Positions 5,630 through 61,349 of a stretch of 64,000 nucleotides of DNA are shown here, in pieces. The DNA comes from Chitinophagaceae bacterium (GTDB lineage: Bacteria; Bacteroidota; Bacteroidia; Chitinophagales; Chitinophagaceae). The stretch spans positions 1 to 64,000 of the forward strand of contig CANCPA010000004.1 of assembly GCA_947379895.1 (NCBI GenBank), written 5' to 3'. The notes under the pieces were generated by a model. The model was not told the DNA's origin. It did not search any database and was given only the letters and a program-made list of their open reading frames with translations. Numbering within the stretch: the stretch's first letter is position 1; the number at the start of each line of letters is the position of its first letter. A program made the position numbers and the translations under genes.

Positions 5630-5866
5630 TGTATCTAGAAATTTTATAATTACATCAAAAAATTATGTATTTATATCTAGAGTTGATGCAGTTGCCACTA
5701 GAGTTAATTAGTATAACTCTAGTGTTTGTTCTCGTACCTCTAGTGTTAGTTCTTGCACCTCTAGTGTTATCTAACCTAACACTAGAGGTTACTCACTTAA
5801 CTCTAGTGTTAACTCTCCTGACTCTAGTGTTTATACGATTAACTCTAGAGTTAATTCAAATATTCC
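5630..5866. repeat. 21-bp-period palindromic repeat array 1 (core AACTCTAG(A/T)GTT)
   Basis: CTAG at 5635, then 5677, 5698, 5719, 5740, 5761, 5782, 5803, 5824, 5845: exact 21-bp steps, with one degenerate slot at 5656. 18-bp perfect palindrome ATTAACTCTAGAGTTAAT at 5838-5855. Confidence 0.95.
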
Positions 5867-5973: not shown

Positions 5974-6642
5974 ATGTCAAAGAAAAAAAGTTGGGTTCCA
6001 CTAGGAATCTTAGTGTTTTTTGGTTTTAGCAACATTTTTGTTGCAAATGCAGTTGCAAATCAATTGGATTGGAAATTAGTCACAGGTAATGTCACTACGT
6101 TAGTGGCCTTGCAAAAGATTTATCTTGACTTTTACAAGATATCTTCCGACATTAAAAATTGTTCACCTTTAGACGCTCAAAATACAAGGGTGGCGCGAAA
6201 AAATTTCATGAAAGCCCTAAGGACTATGGGTATTCAAGAAATGAAGTTTAATGATAACATGAACGATGCAGAACGCACCTCATGTGGAGTAGTCAACAAT
6301 AGTAGTTCAAGAACTCAAGCAGTTATTGCGAATGTGGGTCCGGGTGTAAATGAAAAGGCATTAGGAGATTTGAATTTGAAGATTACATTCATTGCTCCAC
6401 AAGCCGCAACAGTACCTGAGAGTCAGGAAGCGATAAGCACTAAGTTTGGCTTTTATGCTGTAGGAGACCCAATTCCTACAGAAGCTGATTGTTTGTTGAA
6501 TGTGGTGTTGAACACAAAGTCTGGTGTTGTTGTTTTTGACGCTTCAAAAAAAGGAAAACTATTTGTAGGATATGCCCGGTATATAAACACGCGTAAGCAA
6601 TTAGGCACTGCTGCAACTACATTTTATGGTGTTGTTGCATAG
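5974..6642 (+). CDS. Hypothetical secreted protein
   Basis: 222 aa ORF with N-terminal signal-like hydrophobic segment (MSKKKSWVPLGILVFFGFSNIFVANAVA). No family recognised. Confidence 0.7.
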   Translation: MSKKKSWVPLGILVFFGFSNIFVANAVANQLDWKLVTGNVTTLVALQKIYLDFYKISSDIKNCSPLDAQNTRVARKNFMKALRTMGIQEMKFNDNMNDAERTSCGVVNNSSSRTQAVIANVGPGVNEKALGDLNLKITFIAPQAATVPESQEAISTKFGFYAVGDPIPTEADCLLNVVLNTKSGVVVFDASKKGKLFVGYARYINTRKQLGTAATTFYGVVA

Positions 6643-10151: not shown

Positions 10152-10317
10152 GTTATGAGTTGCAAGATGCAGGTTGCAAGTTTCAGGTTGCAAGTTACAG
10201 GATACAGGTTGCTAGTACTTTAACCCTGAAACTAGTAACTTGCAACTAGTAATCTGAAACCAGTAACTAGTAACTTGAAACCACAAAATTTAACATTTTA
10301 CATTTAAAATAATAACA

Positions 10318-20906: not shown

Positions 20907-21283
20907 ATTCTAGAAAATTAGTAACCACTTATTAAGAATTTTCGAGTACTTATTCGTAATAAGTTAAAGCTTATTGCTAATTAGTAAAAGCTTATTGAAA
21001 AAAAGTATAAGCTTATCGGGAATAAGTGAGGTCTTATTGGGAATAACTGTTCGAATTTGGACAGCTGTGAGTACTTATTTTGAGTTAGAGAATACTTATT
21101 CTGAATTAGTGAGCACTTATTGCTAGTAAGTTAAAGCTTATTGCTAGTAAGTTAAAGCTTATTGCTAATTAGAGAGTTCTTATTGAGAGTTAGTTTCCAC
21201 TTAATTTGAGTTTGAAAGGACTTATCAGTAATTAGAGAGTCCTTATTGTCAGTAAGTACTCTCTAATATCATAAAAGCTTTAA
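20907..21283. repeat. 21-bp-period palindromic repeat array 2 (unit CTTATT-N3-A(A/G)TAAG + 6 bp)
   Basis: CTTATT-like half-site at 20928, 20949, 20970, 20991, 21012, 21033, [degenerate 20-bp slot], 21074, 21095, 21116, 21137, 21158, 21179, 21200, 21221, 21242; 15 recognisable units in 21-bp steps, with degenerate edge units at 20907 and 21263. Confidence 0.96.
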
Positions 21284-44405: not shown

Positions 44406-44848
44406 AACTATAACATAAAGACATATAAATTGCTCTTTTTCCCATTTATTTTAGGATAAAACAGTCTGCAAATATAGTTGAATGACTTGGTTTGTCTTGT
44501 ATGGTTTAAACAAAAGGTTGTAAAGTATTTTTTTTAACTGTCGATTAGATTGTGAAATTAAGTTAGCATAGAAGTTGAAATTATTATTAAAGCTATTTTA
44601 GTTTAGAGGATTCAATAATCTTTGCATCACGAATTAGTTATTTGATTCAGTATTCAATCCTTCTTCGTCTCTTGATAGCTTCGCTTTTTTTATAAAAGAG
44701 ACTCTCTAATTGATACCTGAAAGTAGCACATTTTAACTCTCCTTAGGTATCTGATGTTAATCATTATCTTAATTGCATTGCAACCTGACATAATTGAAGT
44801 GAAAAAAACTCTATGTAACCGACTTATTGACAATTTTCAGACACTCAA

Positions 44849-45065
44849 GCACGTGCTTGTGAGACAGCCGCACATACGTGAATGACAGAAGCACGTGCTT
44901 TTGTCACAAAAAGAATCTTTGTAAGGTTCCCGCAGGTGCTTTTGTCGTAGCCGTACTTACGTGAATGGCTGCCGCACGTGCGGGAGTCGTGGAAGTAAGT
45001 GCTTGTGTCATTGCAGCACGTGCTTGGGTGGTTGCAGCACGTACGGGAATGGCAGCCGCATTTGA
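44849..45065. repeat. 21-bp-period palindromic repeat array 3 (core GCACGTGC)
   Basis: GCACGTGC-like core at 44849, 44870, 44891, [degenerate slot, 41-bp step], 44932, 44953, 44974, 44995, 45016, 45037, 45058. Confidence 0.95.
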
Positions 45066-45175
45066 AAAAGTAAGAATTTATATATCTTACAGGTGATAAT
45101 TGAACGAAAAAGTGATAGGGTTTTATATAAATAAATTAGAAATTTTCCCTTCTTATCCTCGAGGTAAGACTATTC

Positions 45176-45351
45176 AACCCAGATTACGCAATAGACACGT
45201 TATGAAATTTAGAAATACAAAAAAGACAAGTTTCTAAATAGATTTTTTGACTGATAACATAATAAATTACGATGAAGTAAAACAAATCAAATAAAAGCCG
45301 TGTTTGAAGTAGTTGTGAATTGTATTAGTGTCCTATTGCGTAATCTTGGTT
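45176..45351. mobile_element. MITE-like element, copy 2
   Basis: AACCCAGATTACGCAATAGACACGTTATGAAATTTAGAAATACAAAAAAGACAAG ... GTGTCCTATTGCGTAATCTTGGTT; same length and interior as 32044-32220. Confidence 0.88.
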
Positions 45352-45925
45352 CAATGCTAAATAGCCGATTCAATTACCTGATATCTGTGTGAGTAATGTA
45401 TAACACAGTCATTGCTTTATTACTAGTCAAGAGGATTTTATCATAAAGGATACTAAGTTTATCACAAAGCTACACAAGGAATTTTAATAAGTTACTACTC
45501 AAGAGGTTACCCCAAAGGCAACGAAGAAAAATCAAGGAAAACAAGGACTTTTTTGTAAATAATTGGAAGGTAAGTACCTAAAAAGTATACTGTTCTTTGT
45601 GTTTCTTGGTTCCTTTGTTCAAAACCTTGTGACCCATGTGGTAAAAATACCTGAATAGTAAAGTAATTTATAATCGATCTCTTTCATCTATTTAATTTGA
45701 AAACTTTTGGTTCCTTGTTGTTGCCTAGTTTACTTTGTTGTAAAACTTCAAGAAGTAGAAATGAGACAACAATAAATAAAAGAAATACCATTGTTTTTAG
45801 TACAAAAAGCCATGCTATAAGCCATTTATTTTACTTTCATTTAATTTTAACCCTTTATATGAACCTAATTCGTTTATTTTGTCACTCTTGTTCAAAAGCA
45901 AGTAACATATATCTAACAAGTACGA

Positions 45926-56166: not shown

Positions 56167-56378
56167 ATAATGTAAAATAGCTTAGGAAGTTGTACGTCAT
56201 AAGTTATACGTTTTAAGTTATAAGTTATACGTTTTAGGTTATACGTTTTAAGTTTAAAGCAGACTTAATTATGAAATATGCGGTTCAATTCATTATGAAT
56301 TATTACGTTTAACCTATAATCTAATACTTACTACCTAATACTTACAACTTAATTGTCATAACTCATAACTCATCGCTC

Positions 56379-60825: not shown

Positions 60826-61190
60826 AAAGGAAAGTAAAATCAGAATTAAGTGCAAAATTGATGTATGTCGTTATGAATCTGATCTGTGTGAGATTTGAAT
60901 TGATGTATGTCGTTAAGCATCTAATCCATATCGTTATGAATCTGATGGTATCGATTATTAATCAGAAGGGTGTCGTTATGTATCTAATCCATATTATTAG
61001 AAATCAGAGCCCTGCCTTTAGCCCACAAACACAGGTGAGATTTAAAAAAAGAGGTGTCGTTATGAAAAAAAGGCAACTGAGGCAATTTATTACTGAGGTG
61101 TGATTAGTTATTAATGGTAAGATGTTTAGTAAAAGCGGTACGAGGGTAGGTAAAAGGCATAGAAGATAAAGATTTAGAGGTGTCGTTTGA
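60826..61190. repeat. 21-bp-period repeat array 4 (core CATATCGTTATG / TCGTTATGNATCTGAT)
   Basis: TCGTTA-type core at 60868, 60910, 60931, 60951 (one 20 + one 22 step), 60973, 60994, 61057, 61183; degenerate TGAGATTT-type units at 60889 and 61036. All but 60951 lie on the same 21-bp grid. Confidence 0.85.
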
Positions 61191-61349
61191 GATATAAGTT
61201 ATGAGATATGAGTTTTGAAATATGAGTTATGAGTTCGTGTATTATGTTATAAGTTTTTTTGGTGGCGGATTATTTGTTAGTAACTCACCTTACACATTTT
61301 CAAAAATTACAAAAAGGTTACCACAAAGTGTGAAATAAAGGGGTTCTTG

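Follow-up and report, generated by a model that had tools for sequence, protein, structure and literature searches.

The 64-kb window, by which we mean the whole stretch of 64,000 nucleotides that was analysed, carries the 21-bp arrays 1, 2 and 3, a gene for a 222-aa protein that follows array 1, and a MITE beside array 3. Rfam, run on the whole window, returned tRNA only. The features that matter here are the following:

5633–5862, forward strand: array 1, a 21-bp palindromic array with a AACTCTAGAGTT core, unlike array 3 in sequence; occurs once in the genome, with a family gene starting 111 bp downstream
5974–6642, forward strand: gene for a 222-aa family protein, assigned by profile membership; no Pfam or NCBIfam match
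20949–21246, no strand assigned: array 2, an orphan 21-bp array of CTTATTGCTAGTAAG type; no family gene within 1.8 kb
44659–44839, forward strand: left flank of the repeated element, noncoding; identity 58–68% between the window copy and the others, at most 86% among the others
44840–45062, forward strand: array 3, about 10.5 palindromic units; homologues at C53, C2, C31, C24, C10 and C54 and, in G009, at C122 and C270
44907–44921, no strand assigned: odd-centred palindromic unit CAAAAAGAATCTTTG, 20 bp, source of a 41-bp step; recognisable in all seven aligned homologues
45063–45172, forward strand: right flank of the element as far as the MITE, from copy comparison
45173–45354, no strand assigned: MITE with terminal inverted repeats CCAGATTACGCAATAGACAC / GTGTCCTATTGCGTAATCTTGG; many copies, uninterrupted site in the C53 copy
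45354–45421, forward strand: right flank of the element, resumed past the MITE, from copy comparison

Array 3 and the repeated element around it

Array 3 is composed of ten units resembling GCACGTGC and one further palindromic unit whose centre is odd. Its consensus is [C/A][C/A]GYACGTRC[TT/GG] plus a linker of about 9 bp at a 21-bp period, and its orientation is that of the gene-bearing copy at C53. The initial annotation had placed GCACGTGC or close variants along the block, and with at most two mismatches they were indeed found at 44849, 44870, 44891, 44932, 44974, 44995, 45016 and 45037; the sites claimed at 44953 (GTACTTAC, three mismatches) and 45058 (GCATTTGA) are also there, but as weaker matches. 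The sites with at most two mismatches share one 21-bp register apart from a single 1-bp phase step, and the exact GCACGTGC occurs four times in the 64-kb window, each time within array 3. The contrast in base composition is likewise real, with a GC content of 0.527 in array 3 versus 0.310 in the 1-kb flanks and 0.338 in the window. The repetition of the block at other loci and the palindromy in an array-level test (p=0.004–0.007) put array 3 far beyond chance.

The 41-bp step had been described as a degenerate AT-rich slot. This is not correct: the step consists of two units, one of 20 bp and one of 21 bp, and in the former the odd-centred AAAGAATCTTT (44910–44920) stands in place of the even-centred core, with CAAAAAGAATCTTTTTG as its counterpart at C53. 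Because this palindrome is recognisable in all seven aligned homologues, the slot has not decayed.

Array 3 sits within a noncoding element of about 580 bp, which is interrupted by the MITE and spans roughly 44659 to 45421. A whole-genome search located the array 3 block at six further loci in the same genome at 69–90% identity, and a search of 13 genus members gave two loci in the congener G009 (C122 and C270); among 299 family genomes, no match was detected outside its own genome. The gene-bearing copies are that at C53, with a 229-aa gene of the array-linked protein family, and its G009 orthologue, while the other copies, the window's included, have no gene or gene remnant nearby. At C53 the 229-aa gene, missing from the window copy, has its start codon about 20 bp past the end of the right-flank stretch. 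A RAYT-like ORF (YHIYNRG, GNHFHLLI) lies beside the C53 copy at L029 7380–8012; it is without a Y1_Tnp match in Pfam and is absent from the orthologous locus of G009.

The MITE had been noted about 110 bp downstream of array 3. It does lie there (about 45173–45354), but inside the larger repeated element. It has terminal inverted repeats of about 22 bp and occurs in many copies at 80–92% identity in the genome sample. In the C53 copy its target site is uninterrupted (L029 8666/8670), and the insertion postdates the copying of the element. A second interspersed noncoding repeat, at 45484–45674 of the window, has more than 10 copies in an 862-kb sample.

Between the window copy and that at C53, the array is more strongly conserved (identity 0.90) than the left flank (0.68) or the right flank (0.79). 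Additionally, in the alignment of seven array 3 copies the palindrome cores are less variable than the linkers (23/79 versus 32/54 variable positions). Array 3 had been suspected to be selected or imported; these data speak for selection. A one-off import finds no support, because the element is confined to the species and one congener and because a raised GC content is general among gene-linked arrays. An origin as part of a known mobile element, which the initial annotation had considered, is likewise not borne out, as array 3 matches none.

The 21-bp arrays and the linked protein family

Autocorrelation of the noncoding DNA in 862 kb of the genome gave 30 arrays with a lag of 21; a lag of 42 yielded 26 and one of 63 yielded 19. 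Heptamer arrays account for lags 7 and 14, and nearly all other lags gave 0–2 arrays. Lag-21 arrays without heptamer structure were present in nearly every sampled member of the genus, an uncultured Chitinophagaceae group, and in each one whose sample was adequate, at roughly 0.1–0.3 per noncoding kb, and none was found in 80 other Chitinophagales loci (209 kb noncoding). The genus members G001 and G004, which have no family gene, showed no 21-bp array in samples too small to be informative (39 and 20 kb). Viral contigs matched the unit pattern four times, none with a 21-bp array, and a longer, more specific pattern matched none. Extrapolation from 20 arrays per 782 kb yields an estimate of roughly 130–140 arrays in the 5.3-Mb genome, a draft assembly. 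GTTATAA-type heptamer (7-bp) arrays, which stand apart from the 21-bp class, lie at 56187–56259, 61188–61235 and 10159–10283 of the window; heptamer arrays are common in the genus and are present in other Chitinophagales too.

Within the genus, the 21-bp arrays share their period and are mostly unrelated in sequence. A CACGTG-specific regulator or methylase therefore seems unlikely as the main story, because the sister arrays have only the 21-bp period and frequent palindromy in common with array 3. Of 36 pure arrays, about 29 lack a nearby family gene (about 80% orphans, array 3 among them), and no gene remnants were found next to orphan arrays. A second dispersed orphan family, built of AACYYATRRGTT with a TTGTCGCTT linker (L009 8870–9151, L013 9717–9920), has three copies in the genome; it has weak relatives in three congeners, and no linked family gene was found for it.

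The neighbours of the arrays led to the protein family, since several arrays lie upstream of genes for proteins of about 220 aa. Iterated profile searches defined three related subfamilies, which within the sample are confined to the genus. Whole-genome searches found about 10–25 members of one subfamily and 6–12 of another per genome in most genus members. The proteins have no Pfam, NCBIfam or PADLOC match. In AlphaFold models the N-half is predicted to be helical, including a long helix, and the C-terminal part to form an FN3-like domain; in Foldseek the C-half matched FN3 only, and the N-half gave nothing beyond chance-level matches. The family diverges fast.

The pairing of array and gene is one-sided. 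A 21-bp array lies at most 600 bp upstream of 41/57 family genes and downstream of 5/57, compared with 24/471 comparison genes with an upstream array in the same genome sample (Fisher p=4e-31), counts that are not independent because the 57 genes were the best-scoring members with usable flanks and include orthologues. Besides 21 bp, the only other period enriched upstream of family genes is its double. The window itself holds a complete pair, array 1 at 5633–5862 and the gene at 5974–6642. The median gene-linked array comprises 8.5 units (4.5–12.9); such arrays end a median of 107 bp before the start codon and are raised in GC (0.387 versus 0.319). Some 21-bp arrays are not palindromic; among the gene-linked ones, 26/35 reach p<0.05 for palindromy when compared with column-permuted arrays, with a combined p of 5e-24. 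Neither unit age nor array growth showed polarity in gene-linked arrays.

Above about 80% protein identity an array motif is sometimes shared, and at 74–80% identity the arrays are often no more alike than background (0.37 versus 0.38). The array sequence thus changes rapidly, with period, position and symmetry retained, and it turns over faster than the linked proteins.

A profile search found the family in 7/399 Bacteroidota genomes, and in G576, G481 and G493, which belong to other Bacteroidota families, 21- or 42-bp arrays precede most family genes. Among 40 named Chitinophagales genomes the only match was Deminuibacter soli, where GCAGGTACCTGC units at 21-bp spacing lie upstream of the gene (cultured strain K23C18032701, array L355 1141–1351, gene L355 1501–2208 for a 236-aa protein). 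The family gene had no match in plasmid and phage records. Taken together, we consider it very probable that array 3 belongs to an array-plus-gene module.

Possible modes of action

The explanation that we favour overall, with a confidence that falls slightly short of even, sees in array 3 the cis part of a two-part module, dispersed without its gene, and in the array of the complete module a phased dimer-binding operator. In the complete module about 5–13 units, as a rule palindromic and spaced at exactly 21 bp, would precede a gene encoding a protein of about 205–235 aa, and each unit may be a two-fold-symmetric site for a protein dimer. Twenty-one base pairs are exactly two turns of B-DNA (2 x 10.5), so that dimers would bind one face of the helix and, acting co-operatively over the array, regulate the gene that follows. 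Symmetry, which suggests a dimer, the two-turn period and the upstream position together lead us to favour phased dimer-binding operator arrays. The gene-linked arrays show what such an operator calls for: their palindromic sites keep a constant helical phase and precede a gene. As the actual working mode, phased dimer binding is a tentative and somewhat doubtful proposal.

The likeliest binder would be the product of the linked gene itself, with the diverging N-half providing specificity and the FN3 domains packed between neighbours, while orphan arrays such as array 3 may represent relics, or else titration sites, of paralogues. In protein pairs with differing arrays, conservation is lower in the N-half than in the FN3 half; this contrast is weak, as there are few pairs and they are related. 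The many orphan arrays, the arrays without palindromy and the RNA folding described below count against the operator reading as a whole. Against a protein binder speak the lack of a recognised DNA-binding fold and the near-zero net charge of the family proteins, and unlike arrays at 74–80% protein identity put a strain on protein–DNA co-evolution. We treat the linked protein as a candidate binder, and as an unlikely one.

The arrays could instead be self-amplifying or mobile, generated and dispersed by the gene product or a partner, with the orphans as offspring by the logic of REP/RAYT. Array 3 with seven copies in one genome and the gene at just one of them, the three copies of the second orphan family, the occurrence of arrays in gene-carrying genomes and not in relatives without the gene, and the replacement of sequence with retained position and period all fit this model. 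However, array 1 is single copy despite its linked gene, no defined ends or target duplications were seen for the array 3 element, the family protein shows no similarity to nucleases or transposases, and unit age has no polarity inside arrays. The excess of orphan copies over gene-linked ones also speaks for amplification, which we judge to be improbable.

Control at the RNA level is rather less probable still. Here the array would be transcribed in the leader, and folded units or an RNA–protein complex would control the protein as in type III toxin–antitoxin systems. The array is positioned directly upstream, on the strand of the gene, and array 3 folds with z values of -5.55 and -4.60 on its two strands against dinucleotide shuffles. 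Gene-linked arrays also fold better than column-permuted ones (mean z -2.35). Yet a terminator-like hairpin between array and gene is absent in 34/34 cases, short uninterrupted palindromes make poor intramolecular hairpins, and orphan arrays are common. Compensatory change within units was limited to the array 3 family, so that compensatory pairing is rejected as a general rule.

A functionless neutral minisatellite, arising by lineage-specific slippage with a 21-bp preference, would explain why units of different arrays show no relationship and change rapidly, and why some arrays are homogenised in the middle and decayed at the ends. Such a minisatellite should not be linked to one side of one gene family, conserved above its flanks as array 3 is, palindromic, or almost free of indels though adjacent units differ by 25–40%, and we regard it as very unlikely. 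Finally, a decayed or cryptic coding sequence of 7-residue repeats, an origin also raised in the initial annotation, is rejected for practical purposes by negative coding tests: the minus strand of array 3 is open across several units, but best-frame stops are not below those of column-permuted arrays (36 arrays, mean P 0.85), so that there is no excess of open frame, third-position bias is absent, and the array 3 copies have a stop and a frame change in common.

Significance and relation to known systems

In summary, we are probably dealing with a portable and undescribed two-part module of Bacteroidota, in which each gene of a fast-diverging helical and FN3 family has its own upstream array of 21-bp palindromes; period and symmetry would be kept, the sequence continually replaced, and gene-less arrays would accumulate. 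The text of the open-access literature gave nothing relevant on 21-bp intergenic arrays or on the array–gene pairing, and, judged on this literature, this points to novelty. The GC-rich repeat becomes one instance of a general rule, by which unrelated arrays with a common two-turn period and two-fold symmetry stand before one uncharacterised family. A cis element that is sequence-agnostic, preserves its structure and turns over fast is unusual in bacteria. The module would also give a first handle on a family without a Pfam or NCBIfam model and would account for a large share of the intergenic repeats of the genus. Because the cultured Deminuibacter soli carries a pair, the module is testable, with this organism as a possible experimental host.

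With CRISPR the arrays share regular repeats and a palindromic character; unlike CRISPR, they have no unique spacers of constant length, the linkers being degenerate copies, and no array polarity.

REP elements are by definition palindromes with a GTAG or CGTC tag at one end (PMC3733652). As in REP/REPIN–RAYT systems (REPtrons), we see short intergenic palindromes that are dispersed, with one or few copies beside an associated gene. The differences are that array 3 repeats GYACGTRC without a recurring GTAG or CGTC tag, that the units form exact 21-bp tandem arrays of about 5–13, each paralogue with its own array sequence, and that the associated protein is helical with FN3 and not a Y1/HUH enzyme. 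PF01797 has five matches in the genome, none on contigs with array 3 copies; the RAYT-like ORF beside the C53 copy has an HFH motif. Membership of REP/RAYT is not supported.

Type III toxin–antitoxin systems (ToxIN, CptIN, TenpIN) also place a tandem array directly upstream of a single small gene and resemble the present module in their divergent cognate pairs and patchy distribution. The upstream array is found here at 41/57 genes and at the C53 copy of array 3. Type III loci are recognised, among other criteria, by a terminator hairpin separating the repeats from the gene (PMC8860590), and such a hairpin was found in 0/34 array–gene regions. Moreover, the unit is 21 bp long and palindromic here, many arrays are orphans, and there is no ToxN-like endoribonuclease or toxin family match, the predicted fold being helical with FN3. 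Type III membership is thus not supported.

In plasmid partition or centromere iterons (ParR–parC, StbA, omega heptads) and in multi-operator autoregulators, a small gene is preceded by phased sites that its product binds co-operatively. Unlike in partition iterons, no ParA/ParM partner or known DNA-binding fold was seen here, and the module is chromosomal with 10–25 paralogues per genome. Compared by description only, partition iterons and multi-operator autoregulators share with our module the phased array of sites upstream of a small gene.
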